A stretch of 64,000 bases of DNA from Arthrobacter sp. Leaf337 (GTDB lineage: Bacteria; Actinomycetota; Actinomycetes; Actinomycetales; Micrococcaceae): the NCBI RefSeq assembly GCF_001423745.1, contig NZ_LMPC01000012.1, positions 189,981-253,980 on the forward strand. Reading direction: 5' to 3'. Position 1 is the stretch's first letter. Each line of letters starts with the position of its first letter. Under the pieces are notes generated by a model, which saw only the letters and a program-made list of their open reading frames with translations, was not told the DNA's origin and ran no database searches. Of the stretch, positions 25,528 through 33,962 are shown in pieces. A program made the translations under genes and the position numbers.

Positions 25528-28500
25528 TCACTGCGCTGTTACGCCGACATTCAGCTGCGTTGTCGGCCCCGTTCCGTACTCGATCAGGCCCACCCAGTTG
25601 CCCGCCGCCAGTCCGGCCCAGCTGGCCGTAAGCTCACCGGTGGTGCCGTTTTCAATGTTGAGTGGATTAGGGCTCACCGTCAGGTTTCCGGCGTCCCCGC
25701 CAAGGATCATCACGTCAACCGAAGCTGCAGTCGCCGCGCCGCCGGGGCTGGCGAAAAGGTTGGTGGTCACCTTCCAGTCACCTGCCACGGGATCCGTGAT
25801 GGACACTGCCTCGCTGGCAGCAGGCGTAGCCCCTGGATACAAGAGCCCCGCCGGAGAGACCACGTACAGATCGAAGTCCGCTGCCGGGTTGGCGGAGTTC
25901 ACCGCAAACTTGGCCAGCGAAGAGCCTGCCGCAACGGTGACGATCTGAACGTCGTTCGCGGCGTCCTTGACCCCGGTGTATGGCCCGGGAACCAGGCTGA
26001 TCGCCGTCGAGTTTGCCTTGGCGAGCCCCTTCACGGTGACGTCGATCGGCTCGGGGCTGCCGGACGTTACCGGAATGACGATGCTGCCCGTGCCGCCCGC
26101 GGAAGCGGCATTAACCACCGCCGGCGCAACAGCGGTCACTGAACGGATTGCCACTGGCGCCCGGACAGTGGCTTCGTCCGAGCTCCAGGTCAGCGATCCG
26201 CCAACAAAGGCGTCCAAGGCGGCGCCGGAGTTCGTGAACTGCACCGTGAATGTGGCTTTCTCGCCTTCGGCCAGGGTCAGCACGTCCGGGGTCACCTCCG
26301 CCGTGATTCCGGGAACATCGACTTCCGCGCTGTAGGTTCCGGCCGTCAACGCGGTCACTGTCCGCGTCACGGTTTGCGTGCCGGTGAGCCCGCCGATCGC
26401 GATGGAGGGCAGGTTGACGTCCTTGGCGGCCACCGGGGCAACGCCCAGCTGATAGCCCTGGCCCTGCAGGAAGCCGAGCCAGTCGCTGGGGCCGGCGTCG
26501 TACACCAGCCCCGGCGTTGCCATCCGTGCCGGATCGATCTGTCCGGCGCCCTGGGCAAAGGCGTCGTGGACGGGAGATCCCTCGGCATCCACCAGATCGT
26601 AGGCCGTGGTCATCATGGCTGATTTGACCGTGGCCGGGGACCACAGGGGGTTCTTGCCCAGCAACAGTGCCCCGAGTCCGGCAATATGCGGCGCTGCCAT
26701 GGACGTCCCGGACAGGAACCCGAAGTTCTGGCCGTTGGAACCTGCCGGCGAGACAGCGGCAAGGACGCCCACGCCGGGAGCCGCAATGTCAGGTTTCAGG
26801 AGGTCACCACTGGCCGCAAGGGTGGGCCCGCGGGAGGAGAACCCGGCGATCTGCGGGACCGGTGGCGGGTCCTGGCCGGTGGTATCGGTGGACACCAGGC
26901 TCGCCGTCAACGCCGTGTCCGCCCCTACGGCCTCCTTGATGGCGGGATCGTCGAGGTGGACCGTGGGAACGCTGTGCAGGTCCACGTCCAGCGAGTTGGT
27001 TGTCAGGTTGACCAGGACCATGCCGACGCCGCCGGCCTGGGCCACGGTCATGCTCTTGGCCGTCCGGTCCACCACACCCCGGTCGCAGACTACGATCTTG
27101 CCGGTTGTCTTGGCCGGGTCAAGCGTGCCGGGCGCGCACAGTGCGGCATTGGCATCCAGTGCGCCTGCGGCCTTTACAGTGGCAGCGAGCGCGATGGGCG
27201 CATCCGCAACTTCAGTGGCCATGATGCTGGCGCCCGCGAACTTCTCTCCGCTGGACAGCTCCACTGTGCCGCGGAGGCTGCTGCTGTGGGTGGAGGCGGC
27301 CACGCTGGTAATCCACGGAGCGGCGTGGTTGACGGTGCCGGCCGCCGGGCCGGAGTTGCCGGCTGAAGCGGCCACGAAGATCCCGGCCGCCGCAGCATTC
27401 AGGAAGGCGATGGACACCGGGTCGGCGGCGGAGTTGTTGGTGCCGGAGATGGAGTAGCTCAGGACGTCGACCCCGTCCCTGATCGCATCCTCAATGGCCT
27501 CCACTGCACTGGAGGCGAAGCAGCCGGTGGTTGCGGGGCTGACGCCCTCCCAGCAGATCTTGTAGACGGCGAGCTTCGCACCCGGGGCAACGCCAGAACC
27601 CTTGCCGAAGTCCCGGCCGCCCACGGCCTGGCTGACATCGGTGTTTCCCGCGGCGGTGCTGGCAGTGTGCGAGCCGTGGTTGTTGATGTCCCGTGGTGAG
27701 AACGTCTCCCTCGGCGAGCGCAGCCCCGGCGGTACGCCTGCCTTGAAGGCTTCGTCGTAGTACCGGGCGCCGATAACCTTGCTGTTGCACTCTGTTCCGG
27801 CGAATTCGACGCCCGCCTCGCAGACGCCCGTGAAAGTGCTGCCGTCCGCTTTCAGCATGGTGATCTGGTTTGCGGGCGACAGGTACGGCTCGCCCACTTG
27901 GGGCGCTCCGGCCAGCGGCTTCACCTGTTCGCCGGCAAAGAACGGATTGCCCGGTGTGTAGCCCGTGTCCAGGACTCCCACGACAGTTCCCTTGCCTGCG
28001 TTGGCGACGCCGGCAAACTGTTGTGCCCAGACCCCATCAGGACCTGGCAGACCCAGGAAATCGGTGCTGGAGTAGTCAATTTTGTTCAAGCTGTCCTTAA
28101 CGACAGCAAGGACGCTTCCGTCCTTGCTTAACGCGCTGGCCTGCTCCGCGGACAACTCCGCACTGAAGCCGTTCACCGCCAGTGTGTAGTTGTCGTCGAT
28201 GGCCACACCCTCCTCCGCGGCCAGCCTGCTTTGCTCTAACTCCAGGTGTGCCGAGTAGCGCTGGGACTCAGCGCTGCCGGCGTCGAGCTTTCTGCCGTTG
28301 GACGCGGCCGTCCCGGGGATGCCTTCGATGCCGCCCGTGTAGGCGGCCAGGGGTTTGTCCTTCAACATCACGATGTAGCGGCCGGCGTCGAGCGACGGCG
28401 TGTCTTCCACAACGGGGTCCGCGGCTGCCCGGGCGGGCGCCGCCAGCCCCTGGCCGATCATGAGTGCAATTCCCAAAGCGACGGCGGCGCCGAGGCGTGT

Positions 28501-28548
28501 GGCTGGATTTCTGCTTTGAAGGCGGAAGCCCACAGGCGGGTGAGTCAT
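25528..28548 (-). CDS. Secreted S8 family (subtilisin-like) serine peptidase, first copy
   Basis: 1006 residues from the ATG at 28548, which has AGGAGG 9 bases upstream. A signal peptide covers about residues 18-44 (ATRLGAAVALGIALMIGQG). An inhibitor_I9-like propeptide precedes the catalytic domain with Asp194 (GVLDTGY), His291 (NNHGSHTAS), Asn398 (SAGNSGP) and Ser616 (SGTSMAAP). A PA domain (GKIVVCDRGVVDRTAK) is inserted before the serine. The last 350 residues are beta-rich Fn3/PPC-like modules. It is a paralogue of the peptidase at 30825-33962 and is divergent from an SSI-like lipoprotein gene. Confidence 0.93.
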   Translation of the reverse strand: MTHPPVGFRLQSRNPATRLGAAVALGIALMIGQGLAAPARAAADPVVEDTPSLDAGRYIVMLKDKPLAAYTGGIEGIPGTAASNGRKLDAGSAESQRYSAHLELEQSRLAAEEGVAIDDNYTLAVNGFSAELSAEQASALSKDGSVLAVVKDSLNKIDYSSTDFLGLPGPDGVWAQQFAGVANAGKGTVVGVLDTGYTPGNPFFAGEQVKPLAGAPQVGEPYLSPANQITMLKADGSTFTGVCEAGVEFAGTECNSKVIGARYYDEAFKAGVPPGLRSPRETFSPRDINNHGSHTASTAAGNTDVSQAVGGRDFGKGSGVAPGAKLAVYKICWEGVSPATTGCFASSAVEAIEDAIRDGVDVLSYSISGTNNSAADPVSIAFLNAAAAGIFVAASAGNSGPAAGTVNHAAPWITSVAASTHSSSLRGTVELSSGEKFAGASIMATEVADAPIALAATVKAAGALDANAALCAPGTLDPAKTTGKIVVCDRGVVDRTAKSMTVAQAGGVGMVLVNLTTNSLDVDLHSVPTVHLDDPAIKEAVGADTALTASLVSTDTTGQDPPPVPQIAGFSSRGPTLAASGDLLKPDIAAPGVGVLAAVSPAGSNGQNFGFLSGTSMAAPHIAGLGALLLGKNPLWSPATVKSAMMTTAYDLVDAEGSPVHDAFAQGAGQIDPARMATPGLVYDAGPSDWLGFLQGQGYQLGVAPVAAKDVNLPSIAIGGLTGTQTVTRTVTALTAGTYSAEVDVPGITAEVTPDVLTLAEGEKATFTVQFTNSGAALDAFVGGSLTWSSDEATVRAPVAIRSVTAVAPAVVNAASAGGTGSIVIPVTSGSPEPIDVTVKGLAKANSTAISLVPGPYTGVKDAANDVQIVTVAAGSSLAKFAVNSANPAADFDLYVVSPAGLLYPGATPAASEAVSITDPVAGDWKVTTNLFASPGGAATAASVDVMILGGDAGNLTVSPNPLNIENGTTGELTASWAGLAAGNWVGLIEYGTGPTTQLNVGVTAQ

Positions 28549-28601
28549 GACGAACGGCCTCCTAGGTTGCCGGACCGGGGGCATAGCCGGTCCCACCTCC
28601 C

Positions 28602-28650
28602 GGATGTATCCGTCCACGTCGGCGAAACGTGGGCGTGAGGCCATACATCC
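28602..28650. promoter_or_regulatory. Interrupted palindrome upstream of the first subtilase
   Basis: GGATGTAT (28602-28609) and ATACATCC (28643-28650) are exact inverted copies around an inner pair CCACGT / ACGTGG. It lies 54 bases before the subtilase start in the divergent region shared with the SSI lipoprotein gene. It may be a regulator site or a leader hairpin in the protease message. Confidence 0.4.
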
Positions 28651-28828
28651 AGTGATGTGAGAAACATACCGGAGTAGGGCCGCGGAATCGAGATGTTCGG
28701 GACAGATTTAATCGCCGGCCGCGCCGGGGTGCCCGGACTGGCGGGCCCAAGACCGGGGCCGGGCCGAACGGCAGGGTTCATCGTGGGCCTACGGCGATAG
28801 AATGGACCAAAAATGAGGAGGACCGGTA

Positions 28829-29380
28829 ATGCGTAAGGCATGGATTCACGCGCTCGTCCTGGTATCCGTCGCCGGTCTCGCTGCCTGCTCGCCGGGCGGT
28901 GGCGGCCCAACCCCTTCTCCCTCTGCCACCTCCAGCACCGCCAGCCCCTCGGCTACGCCCTCGCCGGACACAGAAACTACGGTCCCGGCCCCCTCTCCTC
29001 CGCCGTCGTCGGCGCCCGCCACATCCGGGCCTGGCATGGGGGACGCCGAGCTCGCCATTATGGTCAAGCCGTCGGAATCGGAAGCCGCGCTGAACTACAC
29101 GCTGGTGTGTAGAGACGGCGTTCCGACGGCCGAAAGCAGCCACCCCTCGGCTGCTGCGGCCTGCACCGCATTGAAGGACAACCCGGCGGCGCTCAGCCCG
29201 GCTCCCCGCAGCACGGACCAGGCCTGCACCCAGCAATATGGCGGCCCGCAGGAGGCCACTGTCACCGGGATCGTGGACGGGTCCCCGGTGGATTCATCCT
29301 TCGCCCGCAGGGACGGCTGCGAAATCGGCCTGTGGAATGCGGCCAAGGACATCCTGGGCTCCGCAGGCGGGGTTTCCTAG
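28829..29380 (+). CDS. Lipoprotein with Streptomyces subtilisin inhibitor (SSI) domain
   Basis: 183 residues. A lipoprotein signal with lipobox LAAC (Cys20) is followed by a Ser/Pro/Thr linker (residues 27-66) and an SSI domain (about 70-180). The four SSI cysteines are Cys94, Cys112, Cys133 and Cys164, forming by homology the two canonical disulfides. The reactive loop lies just after Cys133: CTQQYGGP. Aligned with SSI (Cys71-Pro-Met73), the P1 residue would be Gln135. SSI proteins block subtilisin-type serine proteases. The gene is divergent from a large subtilase and near another, so an inhibitor or self-protection role is the natural inference. Confidence 0.88.
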   Translation: MRKAWIHALVLVSVAGLAACSPGGGGPTPSPSATSSTASPSATPSPDTETTVPAPSPPPSSAPATSGPGMGDAELAIMVKPSESEAALNYTLVCRDGVPTAESSHPSAAAACTALKDNPAALSPAPRSTDQACTQQYGGPQEATVTGIVDGSPVDSSFARRDGCEIGLWNAAKDILGSAGGVS

Positions 29381-29384
29381 GCTG

Positions 29385-30329
29385 ATGCAGATTCTGAAGC
29401 ACGGCCAGCAGAAGGCGCTGCCGGCGGACGCCTGGCAGCGCCTCGAAGCATCCCATCAGGCCCGGGTCCGGCGCTATGCCGACCCCTACCTTGCCCGCCG
29501 CTCGGCCGGCAAAAAACACCCCGTGGAGGATTTCCTTTTCACGTACTACACCCAGAAACCGGGCCAGCTCCTGCGCTGGCACCCGGGCGCCGGCGTCGTC
29601 CTGACCGGGCCGGAAGCCGCCGCCCGCTCCGGCTGGAAGTATTACAAAATGCTCGACGACGGCGACCTTGCCGCCGCAGGCCTGCCGCCCAGCACCACGG
29701 CCGCGACTGTCGACCTCACCTCGTTCCTGGCCGAACGCAAGGAGGCGTTGCAGTTCGCCGGGATCATCCTGCGCGGCACGGCGTTGCGGCCCGCCCAGTT
29801 TGGCTGCTTCGGCCTGCACGAGTGGGCGATGGTGTACCGCCAGGACAAGTTTGAATTGCGCCACGAATACCTGCAGCTGCGCCTGGGGGCGGCTGGCACC
29901 GACCGGGTGGTGGAGGACAACAGGATCCGGTGCTCCCACTTTGATGCCTTCCGCTTCTACACTCCGGATGCCACACCCCTGAACGAACTCACTCCGAGCC
30001 GGGACAACCAGCGGTCCATGGAGCAGCCCGGCTGCCTGCACGCCAACATGGACCTGTACAAGTGGGCCTACAAGCTGGCGCCCGCCCTTCCCAGTGAACT
30101 CGTGATGGACTGCTTCGAACTGTCCTGGCGCGTCCGCGCCATGGATATGCAGGCGTCCCCCTACGACCTCGAAGAGTGGGGCTACCCGCCCATACCGATA
30201 GAAACCGCCGCCGGCAAGGCGGAGTACGTTGAATATCAGCGTGGATTCTCCGCCGAGGCCCAGGAACTGCGGGGACGGCTACTGGAAGCCCTGGCGCCGC
30301 TGATCGACGAGCTTGGGGACGGCGAATGA
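29385..30329 (+). CDS. Conserved actinobacterial protein, often labelled 3-methyladenine DNA glycosylase
   Basis: 314 residues from the ATG at 29385, 4 bases after the SSI lipoprotein. The sequence HPVEDFLFTYYTQKPGQLLRWHPGAGVVL, CFGLHEWAMVYRQ, IRCSHFDAFRFYTP, GCLHANMDLYKWAYKLAPALPSELVMDCFELSWRVRAMDMQASPYDL is well conserved across actinobacteria. I see none of the helix-hairpin-helix or catalytic motifs of AlkA, Tag or AAG, so the common label is not supported by visible sequence. No signal peptide. Its 3' end overlaps the SSI-like gene by 4 bases (ATGA), so both proteins are translationally coupled. Confidence 0.8.
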   Translation: MQILKHGQQKALPADAWQRLEASHQARVRRYADPYLARRSAGKKHPVEDFLFTYYTQKPGQLLRWHPGAGVVLTGPEAAARSGWKYYKMLDDGDLAAAGLPPSTTAATVDLTSFLAERKEALQFAGIILRGTALRPAQFGCFGLHEWAMVYRQDKFELRHEYLQLRLGAAGTDRVVEDNRIRCSHFDAFRFYTPDATPLNELTPSRDNQRSMEQPGCLHANMDLYKWAYKLAPALPSELVMDCFELSWRVRAMDMQASPYDLEEWGYPPIPIETAAGKAEYVEYQRGFSAEAQELRGRLLEALAPLIDELGDGE

Positions 30330-30709
30330 CGGCCGACGTGGACCTGGACGTGGACCTGACCGTCCGGCTGACCGAGGCTCCGGGCGCGCCGCAGTACGAG
30401 TTCCGCTTGGTCGTGCGCAGGGGTACCTCGCCGCAGGCCGCTGCGGTTGACGGCTCAACGCTGCCGGACCCTGCGGCGGCGCTTGCCGCCGTCGAACGTT
30501 TTGGTGAGGAAGCCTTCTTCACGCCGCGGCGGGCCGACATGCTCTGCACGCAGCAGTACGGCGGCCCGCAGGTGGCCGTGGTCACGGGGATGTTCCATGG
30601 CCGCCCCGTCAACTGTCATTTCAGCCTGACCGACGGGTGCGAAATTGCGCGGTGGCGCTCCCTCGCGCCGCTCTTCGGCGGCACACCCGGATCCACCGGC
30701 CAAACCTGA
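30326..30709 (+). CDS. SSI-like protein without signal peptide
   Basis: 127 residues. The C-terminal half, MLCTQQYGGPQVAVVTGMFHGRPVNCHFSLTDGCEIARW, clearly matches the SSI reactive-site half of the lipoprotein at 28829-29380, including the CTQQYGGP loop (Cys74, predicted P1 Gln76) and the partner DGCE (Cys105). The first SSI disulfide is lost: the two residues in the N-terminal half are Val and Ala. An extra Cys97 is present. It starts MTADVDLDVDLTVRL with no signal peptide. Overlap with the preceding gene argues for a cytoplasmic partner. SSI-type proteins without secretion signals are unusual; function unknown. Confidence 0.82.
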   Translation: MTADVDLDVDLTVRLTEAPGAPQYEFRLVVRRGTSPQAAAVDGSTLPDPAAALAAVERFGEEAFFTPRRADMLCTQQYGGPQVAVVTGMFHGRPVNCHFSLTDGCEIARWRSLAPLFGGTPGSTGQT

Positions 30710-30756
30710 GCAGTCCGGTCTAATCTGCCGGATCTGAGCGAACAGGCCCATCACGC

Positions 30757-30796
30757 AGGAACGTCCCGGGAGCCTTGCGGCTGCCGGGACGTTCCT
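30757..30796. terminator. Terminator between the SSI-like gene and the second subtilase
   Basis: A 13-bp stem (AGGAACGTCCCGG / CCGGGACGTTCCT) with a 14-base loop lies between converging genes, 48 bases after the plus-strand stop and 29 bases before the minus-strand stop. The T run is short, so efficiency is uncertain. Confidence 0.7.
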
Positions 30797-30824
30797 TACT
30801 GCTGTTTACAGTTGGTGCTCGGGG

Positions 30825-33800
30825 TTAGGTTCCCGGAACCGCGTCAGCAGTCGTGATCGCCGGAACTCCGGCAGGGTTGGACGCCGCTGCGGTGCCCACC
30901 TTGACGTTGATCCACGTCTTGATCCCGTTTCCGCCCAAGCTCAGGCGCCCCAGGTAGGATCCCGGTTCCAGGCCGGTCCAGCTGGCTGTCGCCGTGGTGG
31001 CCGTGCCGTTGGGGGCAACGATCGGGTTCGGGTTGACGGCGAGCTTCGCCTCCGGCTTTCCGGGGAACGAAACCGCCTGGACGACCGCCGAGGCAGGTCC
31101 GTTATCCGGGGTGGAGTAGAGGTTCGCCACGATGTAGTAGGTGCCTGCACGCGGCGATTCAAGGTCCAGGAACTCACTGGCGGACGCCGTTGCTACCTGG
31201 GTTGCCACGAGGCCTCCGCTTCCGTTGGGTGCGTAGACCACCATGTCCCAGTCGACGTCGTCCGTTCCGGCCTGGATGCCCAGCCGGGCGAACGTGGCGC
31301 CGGCGGGCACGTCCACTTTGACGAGTGCGTTGTGCTCGTCATTCTTTGCCGCATAGGCGCCGGGTGTCTTGGTGGCGGCCGTCTCGGACAGGGGCGCAAG
31401 CCCTTCGACTCCCACCGCGATGGGTGCGTCCGAGCCGGAGACCAGGTCCAGGGTTCCGCTGCCGGCGCCGGTGGCCGAGCTGAAGGCGAACGACGGTGCA
31501 ATCTGGGCGTCCACCGGACGGACCGCAATGGGCGAGCTGACCGTGCGCGGGCCCGTCCACGTCAGGGTGCCCGTGGTGAACTTGCCCACCGGCGCACTGA
31601 CGTTCTTGATGGTGAGGGTGACCTCGCGGGTCTGCCCTGCCTTGGCGAACTTCAGCATCTGCGGCTCCACGTGGACGCTGACGCCGGGCATGTCCACCAC
31701 GGGCCGGTATGTTCCCGGCACCAGCGCCGTGATCTGGCGCTTGACCTGGATCTCGCCCACGAGGCTGCCCAGTGCAATGGACGGCAGGTTGAGGTCGCGC
31801 GCGGCAATGGTGCCGGCCTGGGGTGCACCGGTCGCCGCGCCCTGGCCGTTCAGGAAGGCCAGCCACTGCTTGATGTCCGAGTTGTACACGAGTCCCGGGT
31901 CCAGGACCCGGGTGGCGTCAATGTGCCCGGCGCCGCCTTCGAACGGGTTCCGGTTGGGGGTGCCGTCGGCGTTGACCAGCGGGTAGGCGGTGGTCATCAT
32001 CGCGGACTTGACCATGGCAGGCGACCATTTGGGCTGCTTGCTGAGGACCAGGGCTCCAAAGCCGGCGATGTGCGGGGCAGCCATGGAGGTGCCGGACATA
32101 AAGCCGAACTGTGCGCCGTTGTTGCCGATGGTGGAAACGCCCGCGAGGACGTTCACGCCGGGAGCCGAAATGTCCGGCTTCAGGAGGTCGCCGCCGGAGG
32201 CCAGGCTGGGGCCGCGGGAGGAGAACCCTGCCACCTGGGGTGCCGGGGAGAGTGGCTGGCCGGTGAGGTCACCCTTGAGGAGGCTCACCGTGAGCGCCGG
32301 ATTGGCAGCAAGCTTGGATTTGAGTTCCAGGCTCTTGGGGGCATTGACGTGGACGGTGGGCAGCACGTGGTTGTCTGCATCTTCGGAGCTGGAGGACAGG
32401 TTGACCAGGATCATGCCCACGCCGCCCTTTGCCTGGATCTCGAGGCTCTTGGCCGTGCGGTCCACGACGCCGCGGTCACAGACTACGACCTTGCCGCTGA
32501 CCTTGGCGGCGTCCAGCGTTCCCGGGCCGCACAGGTTCGCGGCCGTTGGCGCATCCGGGGCCGCAGCGTCGGCTGCAACAATCACGCCGGCGTCCTTGAC
32601 TTCAGTCTTCATGATGGACGCACCGCGGTACATGCTGCCATCGGATACCTTGACCGTGCCCAGCAGGTCGCTGGGGAACGTTGAGGCTGCAACGGTGGTC
32701 AGCCACGGCGAGGCGTGGTTCACGGTGGAAACGGTGGGTCCGGAGTTGCCGGCCGAGGCCGAAACGAACACGCCGGCCGCGGCCGCGTTCAGGAAGGCCA
32801 GCGCAACGGGATCCGAGGTGCTGTTGGTGTTGCCGGAAATGGAGTAGTTGAGGACGTCCACCCCGTCCTTGATGGCCGCGTCAACAGCTTCGACCGAGGC
32901 GGAGGAGTAGCAGCCGCCCGTTGCGGGATTGTCGTCTTCCCAGCAGACCTTGTAGACGGAGACTTTCGCGGCCGGGGCAACGCCGGAGCTCTTGCCGAAG
33001 CTGGCGCCGTCGATGACCTGCTCCACGTTGGCGTTGCCGGCGGCGGTGGTGGCCGTGTGCGTACCGTGGCTGCCCACGTCCACCGGGGAGATCAATTCCT
33101 CCGGGGCGCGGTGTTCGGGCGTCACGTACTGACGGAAGGAGTCGGCGAAGTAGCGGGCGCCGACCACCTTGGAGTTGCAGAGCGTCCCGTCAAACGAAGC
33201 CCCTGATTCGATGCCCCTCTGGCATTCGCCTTCAAAGGTGGTGCCGTCCGACTTGAGCATGGCGATCCTACCGCCCGCGGTGAGATAGGGGACGCCCACC
33301 TCAGCCTTGCCCTTGAGCGGCTGCACCGCGTCCCCCTGCAGGAAGGGATTGTCCGGGGCGTAACCGGAGTCGATCACGCCGACCACCACCCCCTTCCCGG
33401 CACCGGCTTCGCCGCCGAACTGCTTCGCCCAGGCGCCCTCGCTGCCCGTGAGTTTCAGGAAGTCAGTGGTGGTGTAGTCCGGGGTGTTCTCCACATCCGG
33501 TGCCACCAGGAGCACGGCGGCGTCCTTGGCAAGTTCGGTTGCCTGTAGCGCGGTGAGCTCAGCTACGAAGCCGTTGAGCGCGCCCGTGAACTGCTTGGAC
33601 GGGGTGACGCCCTGCTTGGACGCGACGTCACGCTGGGCCTTGCGGAGGTGTGCGTCGTACGCCTTGTAGTTCTGGCTCCCGGCATCCAGCTTGCGGCCCT
33701 GCTGCGGTTTGGTTGCCGCTATGCCGTCCGTTCCGCCTTCGTAGGCTGCCGCGGCTTTCTCAGCCAGGACAACGATGTAGCGGCCGTCCTTGTAATCTGT

Positions 33801-33962
33801 CGGGTTGACGTTTTTTGCCTGTTCAACCCCGTTGGGTTCGGTGGGCGCCGCGGTAGCGGGACCCACTGCGACGGAGGAGAGCAACAGCGGTAGGCCCACA
33901 GCCAACGCTGCAGCCTTCCGGAGTCCCCCACCCCGGACAAGGCTTATTCCTTTTGATTTCAC
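30825..33962 (-). CDS. Secreted S8 family (subtilisin-like) serine peptidase, second copy
   Basis: 1045 residues from a GTG at 33962 (VKSKGISLVRGGG), where a signal peptide KAAALAVGLPLLLSSVAVGPATA follows; the frame further upstream lacks a good start. Propeptide, then catalytic Asp in GVIDSGYAP, His in VGSHGTHTATTAAGN, Asn in SAGNSGP, Ser in SGTSMAAPHIAGFG. A PA domain (GKVVVCDRGVVDRTAK) is inserted. Architecture and sequence closely follow the first subtilase, so they are tandem paralogues separated by the SSI cluster. The C-terminal beta modules differ more. Likely secreted for protein scavenging. Confidence 0.93.
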   Translation of the reverse strand: MKSKGISLVRGGGLRKAAALAVGLPLLLSSVAVGPATAAPTEPNGVEQAKNVNPTDYKDGRYIVVLAEKAAAAYEGGTDGIAATKPQQGRKLDAGSQNYKAYDAHLRKAQRDVASKQGVTPSKQFTGALNGFVAELTALQATELAKDAAVLLVAPDVENTPDYTTTDFLKLTGSEGAWAKQFGGEAGAGKGVVVGVIDSGYAPDNPFLQGDAVQPLKGKAEVGVPYLTAGGRIAMLKSDGTTFEGECQRGIESGASFDGTLCNSKVVGARYFADSFRQYVTPEHRAPEELISPVDVGSHGTHTATTAAGNANVEQVIDGASFGKSSGVAPAAKVSVYKVCWEDDNPATGGCYSSASVEAVDAAIKDGVDVLNYSISGNTNSTSDPVALAFLNAAAAGVFVSASAGNSGPTVSTVNHASPWLTTVAASTFPSDLLGTVKVSDGSMYRGASIMKTEVKDAGVIVAADAAAPDAPTAANLCGPGTLDAAKVSGKVVVCDRGVVDRTAKSLEIQAKGGVGMILVNLSSSSEDADNHVLPTVHVNAPKSLELKSKLAANPALTVSLLKGDLTGQPLSPAPQVAGFSSRGPSLASGGDLLKPDISAPGVNVLAGVSTIGNNGAQFGFMSGTSMAAPHIAGFGALVLSKQPKWSPAMVKSAMMTTAYPLVNADGTPNRNPFEGGAGHIDATRVLDPGLVYNSDIKQWLAFLNGQGAATGAPQAGTIAARDLNLPSIALGSLVGEIQVKRQITALVPGTYRPVVDMPGVSVHVEPQMLKFAKAGQTREVTLTIKNVSAPVGKFTTGTLTWTGPRTVSSPIAVRPVDAQIAPSFAFSSATGAGSGTLDLVSGSDAPIAVGVEGLAPLSETAATKTPGAYAAKNDEHNALVKVDVPAGATFARLGIQAGTDDVDWDMVVYAPNGSGGLVATQVATASASEFLDLESPRAGTYYIVANLYSTPDNGPASAVVQAVSFPGKPEAKLAVNPNPIVAPNGTATTATASWTGLEPGSYLGRLSLGGNGIKTWINVKVGTAAASNPAGVPAITTADAVPGT

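Follow-up and report, generated by a model that had tools for sequence, protein, structure and literature searches.

A lipid-anchored SSI-type protein encoded beside a secreted subtilase in Arthrobacter: a candidate self-protection pair

In a 64,000-nucleotide stretch of DNA from Arthrobacter sp. Leaf337 (GCF_001423745.1, NZ_LMPC01000012.1, positions 189,981-253,980, forward strand; hereafter the window), the region 25,528-33,962 encodes a lipoprotein with an SSI domain (lipo-SSI) close to a secreted subtilase of family S8, and the two genes were kept together almost throughout the genus. SSI proteins inhibit subtilisin-type proteases and are secreted without a lipid anchor in Streptomyces; their family, PF00720, corresponds to MEROPS I16. 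The best-supported reading of the locus is that the subtilase is accompanied by its own tethered SSI for self-protection. We consider the chances of this reading to be about even; the inhibition, its target, the location in the wall and the purpose are what we infer from the observations below. The features of the region are as follows.

25528-28548, minus strand: S8a, a secreted subtilase (PF00082), divergent from lipo-SSI; accessory copy
28549-28828, no strand: intergenic stretch between S8a and lipo-SSI, possibly a shared promoter region
28829-29380, plus strand: lipo-SSI, a lipoprotein with a C-terminal SSI domain (PF00720 and lipobox)
29225-29248, plus strand: CTQQYGGP of lipo-SSI, the putative equivalent of the reactive-site loop by alignment to SSI and column variability, with Gln135 as presumed P1
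29385-30329, plus strand: P6, a conserved leaderless protein, no Pfam or NCBIfam match
30326-30709, plus strand: SSI', a second SSI-fold protein by model and fold matches, no signal peptide
30545-30568, plus strand: CTQQYGGP loop of SSI', the same sequence as in lipo-SSI
30825-33962, minus strand: S8b, a secreted subtilase converging on SSI'; the genus-conserved partner

The lipo-SSI protein passed the PF00720 profile with 29.7 bits (cut-off, 23.9; E 6.6e-7). It begins with a type II signal peptide, MRKAWIHALVLVSVAGLAAC, in which the lipobox LAAC with Cys20 was read directly, as in a bacterial lipoprotein. A spacer of about 50 residues, rich in Pro, Ser and Thr, leads to the SSI domain, which starts at about residue 70 and carries four cysteines at SSI-like positions, which may form the two disulfides of the SSI family. 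Its match to the sequences of solved SSI proteins was weak (E 0.018-0.037). When the same anchor was called by a sequence rule in a family sample of 120 genomes, 48 of 57 SSI open reading frames (ORFs) had a lipobox and 7 of the other 9 were leaderless SSI'; by this rule, the lipobox cysteine and the domain were separated by a median of 44 residues for the family and of 52 for the genus. Outside the family, where 40 of 67 SSI-bearing genomes of the class were sampled, the rule found a lipobox in 20 of 41 SSI ORFs, so tethered SSI proteins are common. In f25, a family inferred to be Streptomyces-like, all 8 genomes examined had a hydrophobic leader only. A contrast with free secretion in Streptomyces, drawn in an earlier sequence-only reading of the locus, thus held for that family and did not extend to the class at large. 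A third SSI gene in the Leaf337 genome (L004, on contig C28) also encodes a lipoprotein by its sequence, 62% identical to lipo-SSI and with a CTLQYGG loop; no subtilase was present in the 3.3 kb read around it.

The two subtilases matched PF00082 (P0004, 6.3e-42; P0005, 5.2e-46, in a Pfam profile search), possess the Asp, His and Ser motifs as well as signal-peptide-like N termini, and are paralogues with 52% identity. Each comprises an I9 propeptide, the S8 domain, a PA domain and fn3_6 according to Pfam; in S8b, the PA domain is inserted in S8 and the C terminus is weakly PPC-like. Their assigned starts, at 28548 and 33962, are plausible. The sequence-only reading had been correct in describing two secreted paralogous subtilases, a plus-strand lipoprotein with an SSI domain and a second SSI-like protein between it and S8b. 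In a tree of the subtilases, S8a clustered with the upstream subtilases of genera g8, g27, g4 and g14. S8b split into separate groups within the genus, and that of the window joined genus g7 together with six others, which suggests exchange of subtilase genes between lineages.

Conservation of the locus was followed in a genus sample of 61 Arthrobacter-group genomes. Both lipo-SSI and an S8 match were present in all 61, and SSI' in 60; the genome without an SSI' row, G027, is 68% complete. S8 and SSI lay on the same contig in 60 genomes, and in the other, G051, the SSI genes are at a contig edge with S8 on another contig. The subtilase was in pieces in G003, G030 and G053; contamination of 6% applies to two assemblies, G030 and G053. 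Gene order was read in 20 genus stretches: in each, lipo-SSI was followed by P6 and SSI' on the same strand and by S8b in convergent orientation, with an SSI'-S8b gap of 178-376 bases in five genomes and of about 2-5 kb in five others picked for their long gaps. An S8 gene upstream of lipo-SSI was found in only 6 of the 61 genomes, and in G002, G028 and G036 the match ends about 190 residues short of the S8a end. We therefore rejected the proposal that both subtilases belong to the module.

The same picture emerged from named loci, considered here as the best 80 of 363 found, among which the best relative by SSI' was Arthrobacter sp. UNC362MFTsu5.1 (90% identity). A convergent subtilase was present in 76 of these 80: 61 had the order SSI, P6, SSI and convergent S8, 13 had an upstream S8 in addition, and 2 retained SSI' and the convergent S8 without all other parts. 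Of the four loci lacking it, three run into a contig edge; the fourth, L193 (Arthrobacter sp. ISL-72), is the sole locus of the 80 with an upstream but no downstream subtilase.

SSI' fell below the PF00720 cut-off (14.1 bits versus 23.9). It is 41% identical to the lipo-SSI domain (1.8e-16), and the closest matches of its AlphaFold (AF2) model (predicted local distance difference test [pLDDT] score 87) were solved SSI structures. Foldseek ranks 1 to 14 were all SSI structures (probability 1.00, template modeling [TM] score ~0.5), and in a structural comparison SSI structures gave Z 7.1-8.0 with root mean square deviations of 4.6-5.9 over 98-107 residues, with unrelated rows from Z 4.2; the best matches, at Z of about 8, were sermetstatin (4HWX, 4HX2, 4HX3) and SSTI (6I0I). 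By sequence, the first disulfide pair has been lost, and the second pair is accompanied by one extra cysteine. The protein has no signal peptide or export leader here, and a cytoplasmic location is expected because of this. Secretion of SSI' was rejected, as reading 30 genus loci by eye showed no leader downstream of the start codon. In two sets of SSI' ORFs, the leader rule picked out a stretch that was hydrophobic or resembled a lipobox (1 of 20 and 4 of 79); each of these was read as preceding the start codon. We also rejected SSI' as a decaying copy in the genus, given its pN/pS of ~0.4 and its invariant loop. Across 20 loci, median pN/pS was 0.36 and 0.40 for the two SSI proteins and 0.20 for P6, with pS high. 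Purifying selection and loop conservation fit retained inhibitors, although they do not prove inhibition itself.

The loop motif C-T-x-x-Y-G-G-P was conserved in 159 SSI domains, except mainly at the position equivalent to P1 of SSI. That column was the most variable of the stretch (2.2 bits, the next being 1.4; outside the family, 2.9 and 2.0), a pattern like that of inhibitors whose P1 residue sets specificity. In the 30 genus loci, the loop of SSI' was CTQQYGG throughout, and that of lipo-SSI was CTQQYGG in 20, CTEQYGG in 8, and CTQQFGG and CTQQWGG in 1 each. Compared by eye, P1 residue and subtilase type showed no pattern.

The linkage of SSI and subtilase was then assessed in the family, where an S8 protein was counted as this subtilase type if its match to P0005 reached E 1e-200 or lower and the tables for SSI and subtilase were compiled by hand count over genomes that are related and not independent. 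SSI and the subtilase were both present in 33 of the 120 genomes, the subtilase alone in 11, SSI alone in 32 and neither in 44. Where both were present they lay within 10 kb of each other in 33 of 33 genomes. Given the number of S8 genes and the genome sizes, chance would yield about 0.8 such genomes, and linkage by chance was therefore rejected. Co-occurrence by genome gave p = 0.0006, subject to the same relatedness. Gene order, read in 50 of the 59 SSI genomes outside the genus, placed the family locus at a common address, ask-(ohrR)-P6-SSI...purQ-purL. The subtilase was upstream of P6 and divergent in g8, g25, g27 and g31, and also in g4 and g14, which lack SSI; it was downstream and convergent in g7 (3 of 4 genomes), g19 and g26 (2 of 4 examined).

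A separate arrangement was observed in g24. Four genomes had an SSI'-type gene together with S8b away from the common address, in the convergent orientation of the window. Their ask-ohrR-P6 region contained no SSI and no subtilase of this type; three of these four stretches also showed purQ-purL. In a fifth genome of this genus, G135, both an SSI match and this subtilase were missing. The g24 subtilase was nested within the S8b sequences, with g19 and some of the g1 sequences as its neighbors at starred forks of the tree, and the g24 SSI fell in the SSI' clade of an SSI tree built on few columns. This arrangement indicates that SSI' goes with the subtilase and not with P6; as the g24 SSI' also carries a lipobox, it probably serves outside the cell there. 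The genus-wide pairing of lipo-SSI and subtilase, the complete linkage in the family and the separate g24 locus together favor a functional pair, and the self-protection reading draws its main strength from the linkage and the g24 pair. In this respect the module for self-protection or control put forward from the sequence was supported in part, reduced to lipo-SSI and one secreted subtilase. Its larger form, two subtilases around two exported inhibitors, was not supported: the upstream S8 is rare, SSI' is leaderless, and P6, lying between, is an unrelated core protein.

Under the self-protection reading, the lipid-anchored lipo-SSI would stand outside the cell membrane, held on its flexible spacer, from where its reactive loop would bind the subtilase (S8b, and in the window also S8a) as it folds and matures while still inside the wall. 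The membrane and wall proteins of the producer would be spared, and the enzyme would become active only after diffusing away. SSI', with the same loop, would act in the cytoplasm on the subtilase, or on a related serine protease, maturing or leaking in inside the cell; we regard SSI' as a cytosolic sister whose purpose is less certain than that of lipo-SSI. An intracellular subtilase was sought in the Leaf337 genome, which has 7 S8 matches; the three further stretches covered gave two S8 genes with leader-like N termini and one stretch with no motif match.

Several observations weigh against self-protection. This subtilase type was missing from 32 of the 65 SSI-bearing family genomes, and 11 family genomes have the subtilase with no SSI match. 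In g4 and g14, the SSI-less examples read keep the active-site motifs: two g14 rows failed the strict motif, yet closer reading showed the His and Ser motifs to be retained, and loss of activity therefore does not rescue the reading. By genus, the co-occurrence table (9, 2, 10, 11) was not significant (p = 0.13), and the correlation of S8b distances beyond species distance was weak over 17 taxa (0.32 with SSI', 0.24 with P6 and 0.20 with lipo-SSI). SSI is also found more often beside P6 (by hand count, within 2 kb in 58 of the 65 family SSI genomes) than beside the subtilase. As for the proteins themselves, the loop is one residue longer than in classical SSI (YGGP versus YDP), and the SSI' of genus g19 (L074, L089, L100, L105) has neither the cysteines nor the loop, with an adjacent subtilase that keeps its motifs. 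The support of the SSI' clade (93/95) was below the threshold for a star, and the four g24 SSI sequences did not form one clade. Finally, 37 of the 40 sampled class loci had no subtilase motif within the ~9 kb searched, some contigs being short. A search for SSI-S8 neighborhoods in relatives, proposed with the sequence-only reading as a check, thus had a mixed outcome, with the linked subtilase in 33 of the 65 SSI genomes of the family and a subtilase motif in 3 of the 40 class loci. An S8 match was found somewhere in 64 of 67 class genomes among the matches listed, which is background only.

The subtilase-free genomes and class loci, together with the frequency of the lipobox in the class, would also be expected if the tethered SSI were a general shield against outside proteases, from competitors, predators or hosts, with the nearby subtilase reflecting an inherited ask-purQL address; the order ask-ohrR-P6-purQL is itself conserved. 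This explanation is appreciably less probable than self-protection but deserves consideration. It does not account for the 33 of 33 linkage where both genes exist, for the joint occurrence of the pair at another site in g24, or for a subtilase that may be on either flank of SSI and is linked all the same. Moreover, in 3 of 3 loci examined from f19 g55, which belongs to an unrelated family, an SSI whose leader is hydrophobic preceded a different subtilase by 120-500 bases, both genes on one strand, an independent case of SSI and subtilase as neighbors. With few class loci linked to a subtilase, the link looks like a local specialization that has arisen at least twice.

A more elaborate form of self-protection is conceivable, though less probable, in which immunity spans two compartments: an SSI outside and a leaderless SSI inside, sharing one loop, would be kept with the subtilase in the manner of toxin and immunity proteins, and in g24 the internal type would have been anchored and taken over the outside post. 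It is improbable, in comparison, that SSI', and perhaps the whole operon, no longer inhibits a protease and that the leaderless SSI fold has become a cytosolic partner of P6. The absence of a leader from SSI' in the genus loci read, the ATGA overlap of its start codon with the P6 stop codon in the window, the frequent proximity of SSI and P6 in the family and the degenerate SSI' of g19 are all compatible with such a partnership. On the other hand, P6 occurs in 52 family genomes that gave no SSI match, none of the 40 class loci had P6 in the vicinity of SSI, the CTQQYGG loop of SSI' is invariant in the 30 genus loci, and the g24 SSI' has a lipobox and is a neighbor of S8b rather than of P6. Least likely is that the targets of the SSI domains belong to a different class of proteases, in the way that sermetstatin and SSTI inhibit metalloproteases besides subtilisin, with the subtilase as a second client or none. 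The best structural neighbors are sermetstatin, solved with snapalysin and with subtilisin, and SSTI, whose double specificity is stated in PMC4757070, but in a loose motif scan of 50 family SSI loci just 8 showed HExxH-type ORFs, some of them probably chance frames.

With Streptomyces SSI the proteins of the locus share the domain family (lipo-SSI by profile), the predicted fold (SSI' by model) and a putative reactive loop flanked by Cys, with P1 two residues after it. Streptomyces SSI, however, is freely secreted, whereas lipo-SSI is lipid-anchored on a long spacer, has YGGP in place of YDP and is encoded beside a subtilase gene. Sermetstatin and SSTI are not known to be lipid-anchored or to have a linked subtilase or a cytosolic sister. 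S8a and S8b share their domains with other secreted I9/PA/fn3_6 subtilases, but, unlike these, are linked to separate SSI genes besides having their own I9 propeptide. In Bacillus, an intracellular serine protease is paired with a cytoplasmic protein inhibitor; the likeness to SSI' is one of concept alone, a leaderless inhibitor facing a subtilisin-like enzyme in the cell, and the subtilases here, in contrast, are exported. Among the titles and abstract openings listed by searches of open-licence literature, we found nothing on lipid-anchored or cytosolic SSI or on this locus. From the little literature covered, the role of SSI-type inhibitors for the bacteria that produce them seems unsettled, and a tethered SSI fixed beside one subtilase is a defined candidate enzyme-inhibitor pair with which self-protection could be given a clean genetic test. 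Our data also suggest that lipid-anchored SSI is widespread in the class and that leaderless SSI exists, neither of which appears in the textbook picture of SSI as a freely secreted inhibitor.

P6 is probably cotranscribed with both SSI genes, and relatives of it were present in 117 of the 120 family genomes. Its model (pLDDT 93) gave no fold match that stood out in Foldseek, which may have missed a fold, and the label 3-methyladenine DNA glycosylase, given to it in one plasmid record, found no support. Cys, His and Asp positions were invariant in the motifs CFGLHEW, CSHFD and CLHANMD. P6 and SSI matches also stood side by side at about 646189-647416 of NZ_AP024649.1, a 1.0-Mb replicon of Arthrobacter sp. 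StoSoilB13 labelled as a plasmid.

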